Shown here: positions 300-10,411 of the stretch, piece after piece | Layout of the letters: the number at the start of each line of letters is the position of its first letter | Numbering within the stretch: the first letter of the stretch is position 1 | NCBI RefSeq assembly: GCF_003952165.1 | Contig: NZ_RXFT01000001.1 | Span: 1-64,000, forward strand | Direction of reading: 5' to 3' | Origin: Variovorax guangxiensis | Lineage (GTDB): Bacteria > Pseudomonadota > Gammaproteobacteria > Burkholderiales > Burkholderiaceae_C | DNA length: 64,000 nucleotides | Position numbers and translations under genes: made by a program | The notes under the pieces: generated by a model | Database searches by the model: none | The model's input: only the letters and a program-made list of their open reading frames with translations | Told to the model about the DNA's origin: nothing

Positions 300-806
300 T
301 CAAGCCAAGTCGGTCAGGTGGGCTTCGATGCTCTCCATCTCGCACAGCCGCGAGACGAAGGAGAAGTCACTCTCGTCGTACTGCACGCAGTAGTCCCACA
401 CGCGGTACTCGCGGGCCAGTCGCCTCTCCATGGGGTAGCCATAGCCTTCGAGCACATCGGAGACGATGTCCGGAACGGTCCTGCCCTGGAAGATGTGGAA
501 GTCGCTCCGCCGCGTCGCAAGCCACAGCCATGGGCGCAGCTTCATCCGGTAGAAGCTGTGCCGGGCGTCCTCTCCGGTCGGGCCGAAGGATGCGATGACA
601 CCGCCCAGGGGGCGCGTGTCACCACTCTCCGCTTTCACCGCCACGGTGGCGGTCTTGCCGAGCAGCATCTTCGGATCGACGCTGTTGCTGGTGCCCAGCA
701 GGTCCACATCGAAGTCATGGAGCTGGCTCAGCGCCTCGCGGCCGGTGAGCCGGTGGAATTGCAGCGCTTCCCCCATCGGGGTCTGAATGGAAACCCGGCG
801 CGTCAT
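300..806 (-). CDS. vgrG: Truncated type VI secretion spike protein VgrG (N-terminal fragment)
   Basis: The 168-residue product matches the gp27-like N-terminal part of VgrG: MTRRVSIQTPMGEALQFHRL, then LTGREALSQLHDFDVDLL, RPWLWLATRRSDFHIFQ, and the DESDFSFVSRL segment that precedes the EGIYYYF region in full proteins. Full VgrGs are several hundred residues and continue into a gp5-like needle; here the frame ends in ESIEAHLTDLA and a stop. The needle is missing, so this cannot form a complete spike and is probably a remnant. The ATG at 806 is chosen because family members begin there; a GTG at 833 in the same frame is possible. A 24-codon frame with a strong ribosome site (877-803) overlaps this start by ATGA. 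Confidence 0.82.
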   Translation of the reverse strand: MTRRVSIQTPMGEALQFHRLTGREALSQLHDFDVDLLGTSNSVDPKMLLGKTATVAVKAESGDTRPLGGVIASFGPTGEDARHSFYRMKLRPWLWLATRRSDFHIFQGRTVPDIVSDVLEGYGYPMERRLAREYRVWDYCVQYDESDFSFVSRLCEMESIEAHLTDLA

Positions 807-1095
807 CGCACCGCCGAAGACGCAGAGACGCACGGCGCCGGGCGAACATGCCGGCGCGTGCCATCGAAGATGGACATGGATCCTCCCTGAAATCAGTGCC
901 GCTCTGATCGGCGGCGTGTTTCGTCGGAGTATCCAAGTGCGCGGCGTCTTTCATTCGACGCCGCCGAATGCTTCAGCGGATTCGTGAACGAATGCGCGCA
1001 GCGGCGGTGGGGCCTCTATCTGCGCTCGAGTGTTGGTGTCGAATGTTCACTGGCTGACGAGCCAGCCGCACCCATTGAGCGCGTTCACGCTACTT

Positions 1096-1917
1096 TCACA
1101 AGCGGTCGAGATACCGCCCCAGCACCGAGTTGAACCGCTGCGGCGCCTCGAGCGCAGGCAGATGCGCGGTGCCCTGAAGCACGAAGCTTTCTGCCCCGGG
1201 TATGCGTTGCGCCAGCACGCTGCATCGCTCCTGCAGCAGCGGCAGGTCGAGATCGCCCCACAGCACGAGCGTAGGCGCCCGGATGGCCTCTACGCGCTCC
1301 CATGCTGAAGGCTCCTCGGTTGCCGCACCAGGGTGGGCGGCTCGCAAGGCCTTGCCGTTCATCGACAGGAAGAGCTGGCGCGCGTCGCCTCCCACTCGGC
1401 CTGCCGGGCTCAAGGGGCCGTCCAGCCACAGGCGCGCCCGAAGCTCGTTCTTCGCATCCAGGTCGCCCAGCGCCTCGGCAGCGCTGATCGCATCCATGAT
1501 CGATTTCACCGGCTCGCCATGCTGCGGGGCGGGTGCGCCGCGCACGCCCGGCGCAACAACAACGAGTCCGCTTACCCGGTCGGGCCGGGCCAACGTCGCA
1601 TCGATGGCAACTCGGCCTCCCAGTGAGCAGCCGACCAGCACAGCCTTGTCGTAGCCCAGCGAATCCATCACCGCCCAGAGATCGGCCACGTTGGAATGAG
1701 GCGTCGGGTGCAGCGTGCGCGAATCGCCGAAGCCCCGTCGGTCGTAGCTCGCCACCGGGTGCGCCGACGTCAGCGCGCTCCATTTACCGTGCCACGTGCG
1801 CCGGTCCGCGACGTTGGCGTGCAGAAAAAGAACAGGCATGCCGGTGGCGCCATCGTCTGCCTGGTGCTCGACCGCAAGCGACGCGCCGGGCACTTCAATC
1901 CATTCCAGTTTGCGCAT
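1096..1917 (-). CDS. Alpha/beta-fold hydrolase
   Basis: A 273-residue cytoplasmic protein with the full alpha/beta hydrolase pattern: oxyanion strand VLFLHANVADRRTWHGKW (residues 29-46), SYDRRGFGDS (57-66), nucleophile elbow GCSLGG with Ser98, acid Asp222 in LVLWGDLDLP, and His252 in GTAHLPALEAP. Length and order match the carboxylesterase / 3-oxoadipate enol-lactonase-like group. No signal peptide. It stands alone, convergent with nothing and separated from vgrG by about 290 bases. The substrate cannot be told from sequence; ester or lactone hydrolysis is the family default. Confidence 0.85.
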   Translation of the reverse strand: MRKLEWIEVPGASLAVEHQADDGATGMPVLFLHANVADRRTWHGKWSALTSAHPVASYDRRGFGDSRTLHPTPHSNVADLWAVMDSLGYDKAVLVGCSLGGRVAIDATLARPDRVSGLVVVAPGVRGAPAPQHGEPVKSIMDAISAAEALGDLDAKNELRARLWLDGPLSPAGRVGGDARQLFLSMNGKALRAAHPGAATEEPSAWERVEAIRAPTLVLWGDLDLPLLQERCSVLAQRIPGAESFVLQGTAHLPALEAPQRFNSVLGRYLDRL

Positions 1918-2320
1918 GCTCGCGACGATAGTGATTCAGGGCCGCGTTGACCAACGAACGAGACTGCCTTCAGCCTCCAACTGTCAGAGCTTTGTGTCCC
2001 GCCGCAGCGCCCCGGCAGATATCCCGCCGATTCGAGAAATCCTCGACGAAATCTTTTCTCTTGCGCGGCTTCGCTTCTCTAAAGTGAATGCCCCTGTCGC
2101 AAAACGCCCCTCCTTGTGGGCGACGACCACCGATCGTGAAAGGAGCTCCCCCCAACGGCTGACCAAGTGAACTGATGAACCGCCTGCCTCACGGCGGGTT
2201 GCCGGTGCTCCTCGGTGCACTGGTGCGAACGTGAGGCACAAAAGGCGACGGCCAGGGCGCGCAAACACCCTGACCGTCTGACCACATGACGTGCATAACC
2301 TCGAAAAGCGAGCACACCAA
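1918..2320. other. Gene-poor spacer with one imperfect hairpin
   Basis: About 400 bases between the hydrolase start and the next gene hold no convincing coding frame. Positions 2247-2257 and 2268-2278 form an 11-bp inverted repeat with one mismatch (GACGGCCAGGG / CCCTGACCGTC) around a 10-base loop. It has no T tract, so it is not an obvious intrinsic terminator. A 19-codon ATG frame at 2175-2234 was seen but is unsupported. The divergent promoters for both neighbours must lie here; I could not place them. Confidence 0.3.
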
Positions 2321-2653
2321 ATGGCTACCCGAATTATGGCCGGGCGTCCCACGCCCAAATCTTCCCGCCGCAGCGGCAGCAGCAACAGCAACAGCACCAC
2401 GCGCGGCACCACCACCAAGCCCACGGCGCCCACCCCGACGCCCGACGAGGCAAGGGAACTACTCGAAATCAAACTGGCGCAGCTGAACTCGCTGCTGTGG
2501 TGCTGTTATGGCGACGGCAACGGGTGGTTCGAGGAGGCGGGGGAGAAGCATCGGGACAACATGCTCTGGATTGCTTCTGATCTGGCTCGGGAGGCGGAGA
2601 TGTTGTTGGAGGTGAGTAGTGGGGATAGGGGAGGGCAGGCCGGGATCGGCTGA
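2321..2653 (+). CDS. Small protein of unknown function
   Basis: The 110-residue product has a Ser/Thr/Pro-rich low-complexity N-terminus (residues 5-40) and a compact C-terminal part with LNSLLWCCYGDGNGWFEEAG followed by EKHRDNMLWIASDLAREAEM, which reads like one folded helical unit with a Cys pair. I do not recognise the family with certainty. ATG at 2321 is preferred; a GTG at 2291 would add ten residues. The ordered C-terminal composition argues for a real gene, while no partner is evident. Confidence 0.55.
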   Translation: MATRIMAGRPTPKSSRRSGSSNSNSTTRGTTTKPTAPTPTPDEARELLEIKLAQLNSLLWCCYGDGNGWFEEAGEKHRDNMLWIASDLAREAEMLLEVSSGDRGGQAGIG

Positions 2654-2727
2654 CAGCCCGGCATCCCACAAAAGCGGGATGCACTAGAACTTTCCTCTCC
2701 GCTAATGTCGGGCTGAGGAGGGTTCCT

Positions 2728-3498
2728 ATGCCGATCCCAAACTTGTTCTACGGGCACCAAGATGCCCTGATGAGAGGCGCATCGCCCACAACGTTGGCTG
2801 TGGGCGACTCCTGGTTCTGGTATCCGTTCGACAACCTGCTCGGCGAGATCGCCGGGAGCCGACCGCTGCAGTCGATCGTCGTGGCGGGCTACAACGGCTC
2901 CGAGGCGTCGGAATGGAAGGGCAAGTACGCCGACTCCATCAAGACCACCTTCGACATGTACGCGAGAGGCCCTCTCGTGAAGGCGCTCCTGCTTAGCGGT
3001 GGCGGGAACGACATCGTGGGCCAGACGAACTTCCCGAAGCTGATCAAGGCCAACTGTTCGGCCTGCCAGTCAGTTCCAGCGTGCTACGCCGATGACCAGC
3101 CATCGAAGGCGCTGGAAAAGATCATCGGGCACTACCGAAGGCTCATCAAAATCTTCAGGACCTACAACCCGACCGCCGTGGTCGTGCTTCACAACTATGA
3201 CGACGCATACGCCACGGGAGAGGGCGTTTTTGGGCCTGCCGACTGGCTCAAGGTGCCGATGGAGAAATGCAGCGTTCCTGTCTCGCTGCGCAAGGATCTA
3301 TTCGCAGACTTGGTGACTGCCTTCGGCAAGGCACAGGACGCGTTGGCGGCGGAACCCGGTTTGGGAAAGATCGTCGCGCTGAAGACGACAGGCACATTGA
3401 CGGTGCATCAGTGGGCCAACGAACTGCACCCCACTCCCGAAGGATTTCGGCGGCTGACAGAGCGGAAGTTCTTGCCAGCACTGGACGCCGTTTGGTGA
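2728..3498 (+). CDS. SGNH/GDSL-hydrolase-like protein
   Basis: A 256-residue protein with the blocks of the SGNH hydrolase fold: block I VGDSWFWYP with Ser28, GGGND at 91-95 (block III, with Asn), and a C-terminal NELHPTPEGF with His234 (block V), where the usual acid three residues before His is Asn. There is no signal peptide. A good AGGAGG ribosome site lies just upstream of ATG 2728. SGNH enzymes cleave acyl esters; the exact substrate is unknown. The next gene is a secreted phospholipase-like protein 50 bases on, and a degraded second copy of this gene pair lies at 6370-6660, so the two travel together. Confidence 0.7.
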   Translation: MPIPNLFYGHQDALMRGASPTTLAVGDSWFWYPFDNLLGEIAGSRPLQSIVVAGYNGSEASEWKGKYADSIKTTFDMYARGPLVKALLLSGGGNDIVGQTNFPKLIKANCSACQSVPACYADDQPSKALEKIIGHYRRLIKIFRTYNPTAVVVLHNYDDAYATGEGVFGPADWLKVPMEKCSVPVSLRKDLFADLVTAFGKAQDALAAEPGLGKIVALKTTGTLTVHQWANELHPTPEGFRRLTERKFLPALDAVW

Positions 3499-3548
3499 AG
3501 ATCAGCGCGGGCAAGACGGAGAAGCGCAAAGCTTACGGAGGCGAGAAG

Positions 3549-4652
3549 ATGCATTGGAGTGCGACAACTGCTGCCGCAGTGGCGTTCATGTTGATGCCGT
3601 GGACGACCTTAGCTTTCGAGCTGTCTCCAGACGGGACTTCGTTCGAAAAGAAACTTGCGCAGAAAGGGCAACCAACAGGGGACAGGTTGCTCAGCAAGCT
3701 GACGGACTTGGGCGTTCGAAAATTCGGTAGCCCTGTCCATGAAGAAATCGCAAACCGATCATTGGATTGCGATGGAGACGCTGACATTTGCGCTGACCCC
3801 GACTGGGACCCAGCACAGGCCTATGTGCTTGCCGGAGTGCGCTGGAACGATGACCCGCCATTCCGGTTCGAGTCTTCGTTCGGAAAGTACAGGGGATGCA
3901 AGGCCGGAGACACAGTGCGCCTCGTCGTCCAGCCCGAATGCTGGGCACGGGTGTTCTACGACGGCAAGACAAGAGCGGCTCGTGGCGAAGTGCTGAACGC
4001 CAAGACGGCGCCATTGCTTGTGCGCTCCCACTTTGGGGACATGCAGTTCCTTCACGCGATGGGATCGGTCGATGGTGAGCCGCCGGACGTCACCTACGGG
4101 CGAATCATGATGTGGGCCGAATTCACGTGGAAGGTTGCGACCAGAAAAATCCCCGCAAACGGCATCGTTGCGAATCAAGACGTGGCGGGTATTCGCGACG
4201 TCTTTGGTATGAACGGATGGAGTGTGCAGGACCTGTTTGCACTCGGCAACCCCAATATCCGCAAACCTTCCTATCTGGGTGCGGTCGCGTTCGGAAGCCT
4301 CCTACATACCACTCAGGATTCGTTCTCTCGAGCGCATGTCGAGCGGGAACAAGTGACGAAGGGGGCCAAGTGCCCGGGCGCTGCTAGCGACTATGCGGCG
4401 CCAGGCGCCATCAGAGAGTTTCACGCTTATGGTCGCCAAGATGCAGACAAGCACTCCACCGCGGACGTTCGTGCTGCGTTCTCAGTTCACTGGGCTTCCG
4501 GCGCACCAAGCGCGGTGGACGTAGGAAGAGTGCTTGCGCAGTTTTATGACCGTCAAGCGGAGTGGATGGAGGTTCGGCCGTATGTGGAATGCGTATTTCG
4601 GTTGGCACCGAATGCGACGGCTGCGTCTCCTGGTGACTACGCGGTTGATTGA
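3549..4652 (+). CDS. Secreted zinc-phospholipase-C-like protein
   Basis: The 367-residue product begins with a signal peptide (residues 1-22, hydrophobic core AAAVAFMLMPWTTLAF). Two histidine patterns stand out: SPVHEEI (His64, Glu65) and LLHTTQDSFSRAHVER with His253, Asp257, His263. HxxxDxxxxxH is the zinc-ligand pattern of the zinc-dependent phospholipase C / S1-P1 nuclease fold. Several cysteines (CDGDADIC, CKAGD, QPECW) suggest disulfides in the periplasm. The ATG at 3549 follows GGAGG; an open frame back to 3267 overlaps the previous gene and is not used. The function is inferred from the metal motif and fold class; it could also be a nuclease or a toxin domain. Confidence 0.55.
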   Translation: MHWSATTAAAVAFMLMPWTTLAFELSPDGTSFEKKLAQKGQPTGDRLLSKLTDLGVRKFGSPVHEEIANRSLDCDGDADICADPDWDPAQAYVLAGVRWNDDPPFRFESSFGKYRGCKAGDTVRLVVQPECWARVFYDGKTRAARGEVLNAKTAPLLVRSHFGDMQFLHAMGSVDGEPPDVTYGRIMMWAEFTWKVATRKIPANGIVANQDVAGIRDVFGMNGWSVQDLFALGNPNIRKPSYLGAVAFGSLLHTTQDSFSRAHVEREQVTKGAKCPGAASDYAAPGAIREFHAYGRQDADKHSTADVRAAFSVHWASGAPSAVDVGRVLAQFYDRQAEWMEVRPYVECVFRLAPNATAASPGDYAVD

Positions 4653-4779
4653 GGGGCGCGACCCATTGAGATTTCAAATGATTTGCCGTGACTATCTCTT
4701 TGGTGGCGCAGCAGGCAGTTCACTAGGCCAAGAAAATTCTTGGCTGTCGGTCGACAGTGCACCAGTTTAGGAAAATGAG

Positions 4780-6396
4780 ATGGCAAAGAGCTACCGCCGC
4801 CTGAATATTTTTATGGCAAAGCCCTTAAGTGACGGACAACGTTTTGAGGACCTGCTCGCTGACGCGCCGGTGGACACTTACCCAATGGCAGATGCCTTGG
4901 ATATCGACGGAACCCTTTACGTGAGGAGAAGCGCGGAGAAGAGGCCTAGTTGGGGTTCTGTGCTCGACGAGGTAGCGGGCCGCGTCATACTGGGCCTCGC
5001 AAATCAATCGAGTGCTGCGGTGCTACTGCTTCGAGTGGACGGCGACATCTTTGCCTTTGTCTTTGGCTATGGCCGGTATCTAATCGAGCAGTCGCTTTTT
5101 GTTCAGGACTTTGGCCTCCGCACGGCGCTCAACACGCTCGACGACAAGTCACTGCGCAGCGTCGATTTGCATACCCTAGAAGACCAGCCTGTTCAGAAGA
5201 AATCTCAGGCTGCTCGCGATTCGGAGGTAGGGGTGTTCGGCATCGACATCCTACGGGACGTTCTTCGCGCCGTGACGGGTGTCCCCAAGCGCGGAGTTGG
5301 CCTTACGCACATCGCCGGTGGAGACGCGATGTTCTCTTTTGGTGCCGACATGGAAGCTGCGGATTTCCCGACATTGGCCCGCCGCGTCAAAGGCTACTAC
5401 ACCAATGACGACTACAAGACGTCCTTCTCGTGGGTGGACAACGTCCGCAGGGTCAAGGACGACGTCTCGATTGATGCGCTGAACGCGAAGTTGGTCCAAG
5501 CTGTATCTGCGCGTAATCCTGGAATCATGGTCACGCTGCCGGAGATCGGCGCATGGGACACGATCCTCGGCTTTAGCTTTACACGGAATAAGGACGGTGT
5601 GCGTCCCGTCATCGATTCTGCCGACTACTTCGGCACCATTCCTGATTTGGCGCGTCTAACCATCGAGGGCTTGAAGCGCGACCGGCTTTTTGTTCACGAC
5701 GTCGATGGCAACATTACCGAATACCCTGTGTATCGCTGCATCTACTTCGAGATCGTCGACGGCGACAAAACGAAGATCATCTTCGATGGAAAATGGTACG
5801 AAGTTGATGCAACATTCATTGGCCGCATTGCCGAGATATTGAACTTGGTCCAGATATCCACCCTTACATTCCCAGCAGTTGAAGTGTGGGACGAGGGGGG
5901 TAAATCGAAAATTGAATCCGAGGGCGATTACAACATTCGAGCGGCCGCGGCGCATGGATATTTCCTGCTGGACAAGAAGCTCGTCAAGACCGACCGATCC
6001 ACATCGCCCATAGAACTCTGCGACCTCCTTACTCCTGCTAAGCAATTGGTGCACGTAAAGCATCGCAAGGGCGGATCGGCCGGACTGAGCCATCTCTTTG
6101 CTCAGGGCGGAGTGGCCGCTGAAATCATGCTTGGTGACAAGGCGTTCCGCAAAAAGGCGCGAACGGTGCTGCGCAGGGTAAATCCGGCCGCAGGTGATCT
6201 CGTGCCCTTGGACACCCTCAGGAGTGCCGACTATGAGATTGTTTTCCTTATCTTGGGCGAGGGCAGTGCGACGCTCAAGCAGAACTTGCCGTTTTTCAGC
6301 AAAGTCAACCTATCGAAAGCTTTCGAAAACCTTACCCAACGTGGATTCAGGGTATCGATTTCTGGCGTGCCAACGACACCGCGCTTGACCCCTTAA
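4780..6396 (+). CDS. TIGR04141 / DUF6119 family protein (putative defence gene)
   Basis: A 538-residue soluble protein with the hallmarks I associate with the sporadically distributed TIGR04141/DUF6119 family: N-terminal RRLNIFMAKP, a central domain with FSFTRNKDG, and the conserved block VKHRKGGSAGLSHLFAQG near residues 426-443. Members occur patchily in mobile and defence regions; their biochemical activity is not established to my knowledge. The last eight or so residues (VPTTPRLTP) read into DNA homologous to the SGNH gene in another frame, so the native C-terminus may have been altered by the junction. Its base composition is poorer in G/C than the core genes, which fits transfer. No partner overlaps it; the AAA ATPase follows after 343 bases. 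Confidence 0.75.
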   Translation: MAKSYRRLNIFMAKPLSDGQRFEDLLADAPVDTYPMADALDIDGTLYVRRSAEKRPSWGSVLDEVAGRVILGLANQSSAAVLLLRVDGDIFAFVFGYGRYLIEQSLFVQDFGLRTALNTLDDKSLRSVDLHTLEDQPVQKKSQAARDSEVGVFGIDILRDVLRAVTGVPKRGVGLTHIAGGDAMFSFGADMEAADFPTLARRVKGYYTNDDYKTSFSWVDNVRRVKDDVSIDALNAKLVQAVSARNPGIMVTLPEIGAWDTILGFSFTRNKDGVRPVIDSADYFGTIPDLARLTIEGLKRDRLFVHDVDGNITEYPVYRCIYFEIVDGDKTKIIFDGKWYEVDATFIGRIAEILNLVQISTLTFPAVEVWDEGGKSKIESEGDYNIRAAAAHGYFLLDKKLVKTDRSTSPIELCDLLTPAKQLVHVKHRKGGSAGLSHLFAQGGVAAEIMLGDKAFRKKARTVLRRVNPAAGDLVPLDTLRSADYEIVFLILGEGSATLKQNLPFFSKVNLSKAFENLTQRGFRVSISGVPTTPRLTP

Positions 6397-6660
6397 TCAA
6401 GAAGTCTGTGCAGGCGGTAGAGCCCGGATTGGGAAAGCAGTTGAGCGTAAGACGACGGGTACTTTGCGAAGGATCAATGGGCCACCGAATTGCATCCCAT
6501 GCCTGAGGGGTTTCGACAGCTCTCAGAGGTGAAGTTCTTGTCGCTGCTGGATGCTGTGTGATTGCAGTCAGCAGAAGGCTGCAAGAGAAGAGCAAAGAAG
6601 TACGACGGTCGAAAGATGCACTAGACCGCGACGAGCGTAGCCGCTACGGCGTTCCTGTTG
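6370..6660 (+). pseudogene. Degraded second copy of the SGNH 3' end and phospholipase-like 5' end
   Basis: Read through two frameshifts, this stretch gives AVEPGLGK, KTTGTL, then QWATELHPMPEGF and KFLSLLDAV with a stop at 6561, closely matching AAEPGLGK, KTTGTL, QWANELHPTPEGF and KFLPALDAV of the SGNH-like gene at 2728-3498. After a spacer of similar length, ATG 6616 opens MH-stop-TATSVAATAFLL, the counterpart of MHWSATTAAAVAFML in the phospholipase-like signal peptide, with TAG where TGG is expected. Homology fades near 6660. It is therefore the remnant of a second SGNH/phospholipase pair, cut on the left by the TIGR04141 gene and on the right by the AAA gene. It also accounts for the gene-free gap 6397-6739. 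Confidence 0.85.
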
Positions 6661-6739
6661 AGCCGGGGAGCGCAATGGAACGTCCTGGGGCCAAGAGACT
6701 ACTAAGCGTGCCGCCCCTTACCAACATGGAGGCCATGAA

Positions 6740-8986
6740 GTGCTCAAGAGCATCAAGAGGATTAAGGGGCTGGGGGTATTTAGCGATTACGCTCCCCCCG
6801 CCGGGACGGCTGAATTCGGCGTCAAAAACATCATCTACGGTTGGAACTACTCGGGAAAGACGACCCTCTCGCGCGTGTTTTCCCACTTGGAGCACGGCGA
6901 CTATCCGCCGGATCTTGGCGGCTACAACTTCGTCGTCGACACGGACGCTGGGTATGTCAACGAGGGCAACGCCAAGACCTGCGACGACCTTGTGCGTGTC
7001 TTCAACTCGGATTTCATTCATGAGAACCTGAACTTCGGGGGCTCCACAGCGCGTCCTATCCTGCTTCTGGGGGCTGAGTCCGAGGAGGCTCAAAAGAAGA
7101 TTGGTGAACTGACCGACCTGCGGAAACGGATCAATCAAGCCATTGCAAAGCAGGAGAACAAGGCGACTGCGGCCGAGAAGGCCCTTGGTGACCTTAAGAA
7201 GAAGGCGGCGGTGGCCACCAAAGATGCCCTGCAGCTCACCGAGATTTACACAGCGACCCAGCTCGAGAGGGATCTGACTACCGTCGCGATCGGCGTGGAC
7301 TGCAAGTTGACCGACGAGCAGCTCGAGGCTGACACGAAGCTTGCTCGAACGTCGGAGCAGGACGCGTTGCCGCCGATTGACAAGTTGGACGCCGAAAGCT
7401 CGTTGCCTGACGTCTGGAACGACGCCCGTAAGCTGCTTACGCAGAAGCCAGAGATGCTGCATGTAATCGGATATCTCACTCAAAACACCGCAGTCGCGCG
7501 TTGGATCGAGATCGGACTTCCGTTGCATAAGCACAAGGAGATTTGCGAATTCTGCGGAAACTCTCTGAGCGCAGAGCGGTTGAAGGAACTCCGCGAGCAC
7601 TTTTCAAAAGATCAGGCTGACTTCAAGGACAAGCTTGAAATGCTCCTCGCACGTGTTTCCCAGGCCCAACTGGCGTTCGCTCCAGCGAGCGCGCTGACGG
7701 TGAATGCGCAGTTTCGAGATCGCTATATGGCAGCAGCTGACATTGCACAGGCAGCGGGCGAAGCGCATGACAAGCTCGTAGCCGAGTTGGAAGGAGAGGT
7801 GCGAGAGAAAATCGCGGCGCCCTTCGCCGCCCGAGAGCTTGCGACCCTTGACGAGACTGCAGTTAATGCCTGGATCAAAGCAGGAGTGGCTTTGGATAAG
7901 GTGATCGGCGAACACAATCAAGTGGCTCAGCACTTCAAGCAGGAGAAGGTCGAGGCGATCAAGCGTGCCAAGCTTCATCATGCGCAAGCCTTTTATGAGC
8001 GCGAGGATCTGGAGAGACGTGCGGGGAAACAAAAACGATATGGCACGCGAGTGCAGAAGCTGAAAGCATGTGGAGACTCGGTCGAAAAGCAGAGGCTCGA
8101 TCTGGAGGCCACGATCAGCCAATCGCAAAAAGGCCGCGAGGAAATTAACCAGCGCATCGAGAACCTTCTTGGATCGGACAGCGTGCAGATTAAGGTGCTG
8201 AAGATTGCAGGCGAGGAGCGATTCCAACTGGTGCGACGCGACGGCAGCATCGCTAAGCATCTAAGCGAAGGCGAGAAGACGGCCATTGCCTTCTCGTTCT
8301 TCCTAACCAAACTCAAGGAACTCAAGAACTTCGACAAGGCGATCGTCTATATCGATGATCCGATCTCTAGCCTTGACAGCAATCACATCTTCCAGGTTGC
8401 TGCAATCATTCGTGAGATCTTTTTCGAGCAGGCAGGAGGGTCGGGCGGAGAGTGGAAGACGAAGTGTCAGCAGGTCTTTTTTTCCACGCACAACTTCGAA
8501 TTCTTCGGACTTCTCCGCGATTTGCCGGTGAGCGCGAAGAAGACCTCAAATTACTTGGTCAAGCGAGTCTCGCCAACCGCATCGACTTTCGGGAATATGC
8601 CGGATTCGATGGCCAAGTACTCCTCGGAATATCACTTCCTCTTCTCGGTGTTAGATGATTTCAGGAACGCCACGGACAAGTCCGACTACAAGGTGCTGAT
8701 GCACATTCCCAATGCGGTACGCCGCTTCGTAGAGCTCTACACCTACGCGAAATATCCTGATTCGGTCAACGGAACGGTGGACCAACGCGCCGAGAGGCTG
8801 TTTGGCCTGGAGAAGTCCAAGCGCATATTGAAGGTTCTGCACTACTTCTCACACGCCAACAACATCGAACGCATTGCCTCGAATACCGACCTAATCTGCG
8901 ACATCGAGGCTGCGGTGGATGATCTGATCTCACTCATCGAAGTGCAAGACCCATTGCACTTTGAAGCGCTTAGATCCGCCCTTTAA
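6740..8986 (+). CDS. AAA_13-type ATPase resembling RloC/PrrC anticodon nucleases
   Basis: A 748-residue ABC/SMC-like ATPase. Walker A is GWNYSGKTT (34-42), signature LSEGEK (508-513), Walker B IVYIDDPISS with Asp539-Asp540, and the H-loop is STHNFEF with His584. Long coiled-coil stretches flank a CEFC pair (Cys269, Cys272), as in zinc-hook proteins such as RloC. The C-terminal tail carries Arg661-x3-Glu665 and His701 (His705 nearby), close to the Arg320/Glu324/His356 spacing I recall for the tRNA anticodon nuclease PrrC. Known members sense phage DNA damage or antirestriction and cut tRNA. The nuclease role here is inference; many AAA_13 ATPases have other effectors. No restriction-modification genes are adjacent, as for stand-alone RloC. 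Composition is less G/C-rich than flanking genes. Confidence 0.8.
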   Translation: MLKSIKRIKGLGVFSDYAPPAGTAEFGVKNIIYGWNYSGKTTLSRVFSHLEHGDYPPDLGGYNFVVDTDAGYVNEGNAKTCDDLVRVFNSDFIHENLNFGGSTARPILLLGAESEEAQKKIGELTDLRKRINQAIAKQENKATAAEKALGDLKKKAAVATKDALQLTEIYTATQLERDLTTVAIGVDCKLTDEQLEADTKLARTSEQDALPPIDKLDAESSLPDVWNDARKLLTQKPEMLHVIGYLTQNTAVARWIEIGLPLHKHKEICEFCGNSLSAERLKELREHFSKDQADFKDKLEMLLARVSQAQLAFAPASALTVNAQFRDRYMAAADIAQAAGEAHDKLVAELEGEVREKIAAPFAARELATLDETAVNAWIKAGVALDKVIGEHNQVAQHFKQEKVEAIKRAKLHHAQAFYEREDLERRAGKQKRYGTRVQKLKACGDSVEKQRLDLEATISQSQKGREEINQRIENLLGSDSVQIKVLKIAGEERFQLVRRDGSIAKHLSEGEKTAIAFSFFLTKLKELKNFDKAIVYIDDPISSLDSNHIFQVAAIIREIFFEQAGGSGGEWKTKCQQVFFSTHNFEFFGLLRDLPVSAKKTSNYLVKRVSPTASTFGNMPDSMAKYSSEYHFLFSVLDDFRNATDKSDYKVLMHIPNAVRRFVELYTYAKYPDSVNGTVDQRAERLFGLEKSKRILKVLHYFSHANNIERIASNTDLICDIEAAVDDLISLIEVQDPLHFEALRSAL

Positions 8987-9082
8987 GACGGCTCGATCAT
9001 GTCTGCCGGTGCAAGCCTTGGGGCCTTGCGTTTGCGGCGGTATGCGCGCGCTTTCTACGATACCAGCCCTCGCTGCTTTCTC

Positions 9083-10411
9083 TTACCTCTGCGGCATGTC
9101 CTTGACCGAATACCCCAGGCTCACCGTCGCATCCTCCGGAATCGCCGGCATCGTCGCATTCCAGGCCTGCCAATCCGCCCGCATCGCAGCCAGCCGCTCC
9201 GGCTCCTTCTTCGCCAGATTCGCCCGCTCGCGTTCATCCCCGGGAATGTTGAACAGGTACTCGTTGCCGTCCACCTTCAGGTACTTCCAGTCTCCATCGC
9301 GCAGCGCTTCCTGTCCGCGATGGTTCATGCGCCAGTGCAGCGGCCGGCGGAAGCTCTTCGATGCGTCCTTGAGCACGGGCATCAGCGATACGCCGTCCAG
9401 CGGGTAGTCGGGGTGCGCGGCCACGCCGGCTGCGTCGAGCATGGTGGCCGACCAGTCCATGGTCATGCACAGCTGGGTGCTCTCGCCGCCCTTGGCGATC
9501 ACGGCGGGCCAGTGCGCGATCCATGGCACGCGGATGCCGCCTTCGGTCAGGTCCATCTTGCCGCCGACCAGCGGCCAGTTGTCGGAGAAGCGTTCGCCGC
9601 CGTTGTCGCTGGTGAACACGACCAGGGTGTTGTCGGCCATGCCGTGCTTCTTCAGCGCGTCCATGATCCAGCCGATGCCTTCGTCCATGTGATGGATCAT
9701 GCGGCGGTACACGTTGATGTTGCCGCCGGCCAGGTCGAACAGGTTGTCCTTGATGTTCGGCGCCTTGGCCGCGTCGTCGCGGGTTTCCCACGGCCAGTGG
9801 GGGGCGGTGTAGTGCAGGCTCAGGAAGAAGGGGGCTTCCTCTTTTTTCTGAAGCGCTGCCATGCGCTCGACGTAGTCGACGGCGCGCTTCGAAAGGACGT
9901 CGGTGAGGTAGCCCTCTTCCTGCTTGTCTTCCTCGCCGAACCACAGGTCGTGGCGGCCGGTGGAGTCGCAATGCGTGAAGTAGTCGACGCCGCCCGACAT
10001 GGGGCCGAAGAACTCGTCGTACCCCGAGCGCAGCGGGCCGAAGGTGGGCGGGTAGCCCAGGTGCCACTTGCCGATGAGGGCGGTCTGGTAGCCGCTGGCC
10101 TTCAGCAATGAAGGCAGGGTGGGGTGGTCGGTGGGCAGGCCCAGGGTGGTGCTGCCACGGCTCCTGCTGTTGATGGGCTCCTCGGCCGCGCCGCGCAGGC
10201 GGTACTGGTAGCGGCCGGTGATCATGCCGAAGCGTGTGGGCGAGCACACGGGCGAGTTGGCGTAGCCCTGGGTGAGCTTCAGGCCGTTGGCGGCCAGGCC
10301 GTCGAGCACTGGCGAGACGGGGCCGAACGCCGCGTCGCGGCCGCCGTAGCAGCCGAGGTCGGCATAGCCGAGGTCGTCGGCGACGATGAAGATGATGTTG
10401 GGTCTGGTCAT
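9083..10411 (-). CDS. Arylsulfatase-type sulfatase
   Basis: A 442-residue alkaline-phosphatase-superfamily enzyme. The formylglycine signature CSPTR places the catalytic Cys at residue 56 and Arg at 60; metal ligands appear as ADD at 11-13 and in the TSDNGG motif in the second half; IGKWHLG supplies Lys115 and His117. There is no signal peptide, so it should be cytoplasmic and needs a formylglycine-generating enzyme encoded elsewhere. It hydrolyses organic sulfate esters. Two Bug-type receptors follow upstream on the same strand, suggesting uptake and hydrolysis of a sulfated or carboxylated substrate, but a repeat element separates them. Confidence 0.9.
   Translation of the reverse strand: MTRPNIIFIVADDLGYADLGCYGGRDAAFGPVSPVLDGLAANGLKLTQGYANSPVCSPTRFGMITGRYQYRLRGAAEEPINSRSRGSTTLGLPTDHPTLPSLLKASGYQTALIGKWHLGYPPTFGPLRSGYDEFFGPMSGGVDYFTHCDSTGRHDLWFGEEDKQEEGYLTDVLSKRAVDYVERMAALQKKEEAPFFLSLHYTAPHWPWETRDDAAKAPNIKDNLFDLAGGNINVYRRMIHHMDEGIGWIMDALKKHGMADNTLVVFTSDNGGERFSDNWPLVGGKMDLTEGGIRVPWIAHWPAVIAKGGESTQLCMTMDWSATMLDAAGVAAHPDYPLDGVSLMPVLKDASKSFRRPLHWRMNHRGQEALRDGDWKYLKVDGNEYLFNIPGDERERANLAKKEPERLAAMRADWQAWNATMPAIPEDATVSLGYSVKDMPQR

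Follow-up and report, generated by a model that had tools for sequence, protein, structure and literature searches.

The closest described systems are the anticodon nucleases RloC and PrrC. In the accessible part of PMC3874168, the RloC proteins of Geobacillus kaustophilus (GkaRloC) and Acinetobacter baylyi (AbaRloC) are 33% identical and both cut anticodons; AbaRloC cuts tRNA-Glu and tRNA-Gln, whereas the target of PrrC is tRNA-Lys. RloC is defined by the motif Arg-x3-Glu-x36-52-His, with a Ser often preceding the His, and the residues mutated in GkaRloC were R692, E696 and H737; such a tail is lacking in Rad50 and SbcC, and PrrC is kept silent by a linked type I restriction-modification (R-M) system (PMC2610378, as far as accessible). 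The stretch of DNA analysed here (the window, 64,000 nucleotides from Variovorax guangxiensis) carries at 6740..8986 on the + strand an rloC-like gene. This gene is probably an intact, stand-alone RloC, consisting of a Rad50-like ABC ATPase, a CxxC-tipped helical insert and a C-terminal HEPN-like ribonuclease (RNase), and acting by the mechanism proposed below. A stand-alone RloC-type anticodon nuclease had been put forward as a candidate in a first-pass annotation, and this is now supported by motif, conservation and predicted fold.

The conservation of the protein was assessed in an alignment of 49 sequences. Scanning 84,980 species genomes yielded 20 loci, and the 18 nearly complete ones entered an alignment with the window protein; the addition of genus, family and viral copies gave 37 sequences, and eleven loci outside the open reading frame (ORF) pattern together with L032 brought the total to 49, including the window. 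Identity to the window protein ranges from 24 to 64% for the 36 others of the 37-sequence set. Collapsing near-duplicates at 90% identity left 46 sequences and the same conservation result.

The putative nuclease resides in residues 628-748 (8621..8983, +), a C-terminal HEPN-like domain whose predicted fold matches HEPN RNases in general. Within it, R661-x3-E665 (8720..8734, +) and H705 are invariant (49/49), as are E630 and D737. K698-x6-H705 (8831..8854, +) stands in place of the HEPN R-x4-6-H motif, position 698 being Lys in 30 sequences, Arg in 17, and Gln and Glu in one each. S704 is Ser in 48 of the 49 and Cys in one, while at position 740 there are 39 sequences with His and 10 with Gln. 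The first-pass annotation had proposed R661, E665 and H701 as the catalytic triad, with the His about 32 residues after the Glu. All three residues are present at these positions, the distance from E665 to H701 being 36. Their conservation had been named beforehand as the refuting test; R661 and E665 withstood it and H701 did not, as position 701 is His in 29 of the 49 sequences and Asn in the other 20. H701 was, therefore, rejected as the catalytic His, and since H705 is found in every sequence, the His of the predicted triad is H705. Shuffled tails contain R-x3-E with a His 28-40 residues on at a rate of 13%, which makes a triad with H701 weak by itself, and the full R-x3-E-x(36-52)-S-H form at a rate of 1.7%; the motif is considered real because it is conserved across the 49 sequences. 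The assignment of H705 yields R661-x3-E665-x39-H705, in agreement with the published RloC definition and with R692/E696/H737 of GkaRloC. The spacing lies within the published x36-52 in 43 of the 49 sequences and is 35 in the remaining six.

The ATPase head carries a complete ABC-type nucleotide site, as the first-pass annotation had it. Walker A occupies residues 34-41 (GWNYSGKT; 6839..6862, +), with N36, G39 and K40 in 47 of 49 sequences, the remaining two being cut short there, and T41 in 42, with Ser in five. The ABC signature LSEGE (residues 508-512; 8261..8275, +) is followed by Walker B and the D-loop (residues 535-546, with IDDP-SSLD; 8342..8377, +), and S509, G511, E512, D539 and D540 are found in 49/49, as is His584 downstream of the D-loop, the likely switch His. 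These counts lean towards themselves for 18 of the 49 sequences, as a Walker A and signature pattern helped to pick those ORFs. The CxxC hook, C269-E-F-C272 (7544..7555, +), lies where it was first described, and both cysteines are invariant (49/49); a CxxC arises by chance in 5.7% of whole-protein shuffles. Predicted helices (111-258 and 278-477) flank it, AlphaFold2 confidence being low there, so that the shape of the arm is of low confidence.

By analogy, RloC appears to be made for detecting DNA breaks and halting protein synthesis in response, by cutting tRNA. The ATPase and hook would keep the nuclease silent until DNA ends, or similar damage in phage infection, shift the state of the ATPase and set the nuclease free. 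One or a few tRNAs would then be cut in the anticodon loop, at the wobble nucleotide, by R661, E665 and H705 together with K698, and this nucleotide might, by the same analogy, also be excised; translation would halt and the phage would fail. We infer the tRNA target, wobble excision, DNA-break trigger and zinc control from the Geobacillus and Acinetobacter proteins. Established at this locus are the gene, its motifs and their invariance, the predicted folds of head and tail, the setting at a site that holds defence genes in relatives and the absence of an HsdR domain from the genome. A HEPN RNase of RloC build might instead cut mRNA or other RNA, as RnlA/LsoA do, rather than tRNA anticodons. 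The fold match is indeed to HEPN RNases generally, and targets vary, since AbaRloC and PrrC differ in the tRNA that they cut; nevertheless, two RloC proteins as divergent as GkaRloC and AbaRloC both cut anticodons, and the triad residues occupy matching positions, making this alternative unlikely.

The reading frame itself is sound. It runs from a GTG start to a TAA stop without an internal stop, and a likely ribosome-binding site, GGAGG (6728..6732, +), read directly from the sequence, lies 7 nucleotides 5' of the GTG. The start is backed by relatives, as the aligned proteins begin at the same residue. On the opposite strand there are only shorter overlapping ORFs of 318, 218 and 114 amino acids (80-amino-acid cut-off). 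In profile searches the protein matches PF13166 (AAA_13, E 5.7e-121) and PADLOC PDC-S06 (E 8.7e-133; residues 2-745 on profile positions 2-780 of 790), and the assembled genome (7.18 Mb, 42 contigs) has no second AAA_13 match with an E of 0.001 or less. Three PHROGs families were matched, all of unknown function. Searching solved structures by sequence with the protein, its full profile and the tail profile gave no RloC or PrrC entry; the full profile gave only coiled-coil matches to DCC-interacting protein 13-alpha, and the tail profile gave nothing below 0.8. An operon with the downstream ORF 8999-10111 (+), which starts 12 bp past rloC, was considered and rejected; this ORF has no Pfam match and is antisense to the sulfatase gene described below.

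No R-M family and no SbcD/Mre11 partner was found in a scan of eight frames next to rloC, from 300 to 10411, which bears out the initial claim that R-M genes are absent around it. HSDR_N has no match in the assembled genome and N6_Mtase has two weak matches elsewhere in it, and the gene is, therefore, taken as a stand-alone RloC. AbaRloC responded to a DNA-break inducer in R-M mutants also (accessible part of PMC3874168).

The surrounding region had been described as otherwise metabolic, and this is too simple: rloC is part of a variable segment, and defence genes occupy the site in 6 of 20 other genus genomes. The right border of the segment is a sulfatase gene (9083..10411, -; PF00884, E 1e-59); 95 of 101 genus genomes have a match to it with E no higher than 1e-100, a few through distant copies alone. 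G+C is 0.562 in the segment 2700-9000 and 0.548 in rloC, with 0.685 in the right stretch and 0.644 in the left flank; at third codon positions (GC3) it is 0.69 in rloC versus 0.91 in the sulfatase gene. The DNA beyond the sulfatase 3' end was compared in 20 other genus genomes (L045-L053, L055-L065). The match to the window stops at the end of the sulfatase gene in all 20, and in 8 of them a block of at least 446 bp matching window ~1977-2786 returns after 0.6-11.3 kb; this block (1977..2786) is the left border, where similarity to the DNA of other species sets in again. In two of the 20 (G080 and G018; L046:2030-2259 and L050:7432-7681) the sulfatase 3' end is present a second time farther along, as a 250-bp copy that integration at this end may have left. 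As the site is variable and its border gene common, relatives with and without rloC can be compared.

Among the matches listed, the six genomes with defence genes at this site carry a type II-A retron (G080; RT 4.6e-77, NDT 2.9e-42), a Hachiman-like helicase (G002; 1.3e-33), Gabija (G048; GajA 2.1e-281, GajB 1.3e-230), Mokosh (G018; MkoA 4.4e-195, MkoB 7.6e-27), AbiE (G039; AbiEii 1.1e-110, AbiEi 1.3e-67) and a NACHT gene (G087), the last with a broken piece of a different rloC nearby. This remnant (L045, G087:C1 ~4484600-4485200) is 40-49% identical and spans residues 553-748; it sits at the site where the window has its intact gene. The other 14 genomes gave no strong defence match among ORFs of at least 200 amino acids in the first 7 kb (best 25 of 54 models). 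On the variable side, 85 ORFs matched 54 PADLOC models, whereas on the control side of the sulfatase gene (7 kb, same 20 genomes) 101 ORFs matched two models at 1e-30, mad3 in two ORFs and mad8 in one; because many models match one gene, the ratio of 54 to 2 is not a count of systems.

Other genes of the island include a GDSL-like hydrolase at its left (2728..3498, +; below the Pfam curated cut-off) and a DUF6119/TIGR04141 gene (4780..6396) on the same + strand as rloC. Between the latter and rloC lies the 3'-end remnant of a second GDSL-like gene (6457..6558, +; tblastn 64.7% over 34 amino acids), left behind by a duplication or insertion within this island. A frame of 410 amino acids (3420-4652, +) has no Pfam, NCBIfam or PADLOC match. 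A VgrG/baseplate-hub fragment of 177 amino acids (300-833, -) lies at the contig start near the left border of the island. It is improbable that rloC forms a two-gene unit with the DUF6119 gene as its sensor or regulator. The two share a strand and the low-G+C island and lie 343 bp apart, and the DUF6119 gene is itself sporadic (4/101 genus genomes, the window's included), but the remnant of a third gene sits between them, and tblastn detected only the window's own DUF6119 among loci L001-L033, many of whose flanks span just 1.5 kb. For DUF6119/TIGR04141, all that a literature search retrieved was an unrelated paper on wheat.

Searching with the window protein gives a match at 0.001 in 22 of 101 genus genomes, and a copy of at least 44% identity is present in 5 of the 101, the window's included; the closest (G067, 65% identity) lies in different surroundings. 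Relatives of rloC are found at 15 loci in viral contigs and in 224 plasmid records (156 at 80% coverage, all <60% identical), and nine phage records matched, none reaching 80% query coverage. This patchy presence in the genus, together with the plasmid and viral copies, is what a mobile defence gene would show. The head finds its best matches in those of Rad50, SMC and condensin. Even so, it is highly improbable that the protein is a DNA-repair ATPase like Rad50/SbcC, or an SMC-like one, that has no nuclease and whose tail residues are structural, given that Rad50 and SbcC lack such a tail, that the invariant R, E and H lie inside a predicted HEPN-like fold and that so patchy a distribution is unlike that of a housekeeping repair gene.

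Some relatives of this RloC are paired or fused. In G057 (L041:9147-13586, G057:C7) the rloC frame runs on, shortly past the S-H motif, into an Mrr_cat and nSTAND3 part, making a single open frame of 1479 amino acids. In G182 (L127:5719-10225) and G653 (L128:6290-10796), two of 299 family genomes searched, rloC is followed after 4 bp by an Mrr-nuclease/nSTAND3 ATPase gene; these separate genes are 80-85% identical to the G057 fusion and lie in different surroundings. No other Mrr-nSTAND3 part was found beside rloC among the loci from which the 37-sequence set was drawn, G613 and G040 have a distant Mrr-nSTAND3 relative (36%) with no rloC match reported there, and a single literature search found no paper with both RloC and nSTAND3. 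The paired and fused forms hint at what might trigger RloC: the clade of the window's RloC may, tentatively, be a mobile effector able to couple to a sensor, with the stand-alone copy one state of a two-part defence system. If so, a STAND/restriction module and an anticodon nuclease would act together, giving RloC a natural trigger partner.

RloC recurs in defence surveys, yet its antiviral role is still inferred in the literature found. A Streptococcus thermophilus study, in its accessible part, lists RloC among what it did not test against phages (PMC12322248), and in that of a Pseudomonas study its function is called unknown and RloC went with susceptibility (PMC12447246). No direct phage-protection test of RloC, including in its natural host, was found in this mainly open-access, partly accessible literature. 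With its catalytic His reassigned, the window copy is a clear example of a stand-alone RloC, and its predicted fold lends some support to the 2013 HEPN prediction.

Compared with known systems, the window protein most resembles RloC of G. kaustophilus and A. baylyi, to which it is likened by published description. It shares the ABC-ATPase head with its ABC motifs, a CxxC hook in a helical insert splitting the ATPase, the Arg-x3-Glu-x39-His tail motif with Ser before the His, and the GUG start; at 748 amino acids it falls within the 658-897 of RloC, which is seldom R-M linked, and no linked R-M was found. PrrC with EcoprrI is alike in the ABC-ATPase head and in the R-x3-E and later S-H of the tail, but is short, lacks the CxxC and has a linked type I R-M system. 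In a set of PrrC proteins (14 of 299 phylum-sampled genomes matching the PADLOC PrrC model at E up to 1e-40, a long ORF being readable in 13), R-x3-E with a later His and an Arg seven before that His were found in 13/13 and Ser before the His in 12/13. The pattern is R-x3-E then R-x6-(S)H, versus R-x3-E then K-x6-SH in the window. These proteins have 336-409 amino acids, and none of the 13 has a CxxC. Their Glu-His spacing (31 in two, 33 in two, 35 in eight, 39 in one) overlaps the 39 of the window and was dropped as a discriminator. PrrC proper is ruled out not by spacing but by three other features, namely the CxxC insert, the protein length and the absence of a linked type I R-M system. In a profile comparison of PrrC with the window protein the ATPase parts align (probability 96.9) and the tails do not (0.3); homology to the PrrC tail by profile was rejected, and the triad is shared by motif position only. 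The 2008 paper likewise related the RloC and PrrC tails by motif position, with manual adjustment (accessible part of PMC2610378). Rad50/SbcC share the head fold and hook, but Rad50 itself has no nuclease domain, whereas the window protein has an extra HEPN-like tail and no SbcD/Mre11 among its scanned neighbours. HEPN RNases (MNT-HEPN toxins, Csm6, Las1) resemble the tail in predicted fold, with a helix-end His and a basic residue seven before it, and differ from it in that the window has Lys, not Arg, at the motif start and a fusion to an ABC ATPase. PDC-S06, a PADLOC candidate single-gene defence, is among the best PADLOC models for the protein and matches it over nearly its full length, under a candidate label only, without an attached mechanism. 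RloC is thus a known kind, and the window copy is a well-supported addition to it, with its catalytic His corrected and its setting explained.
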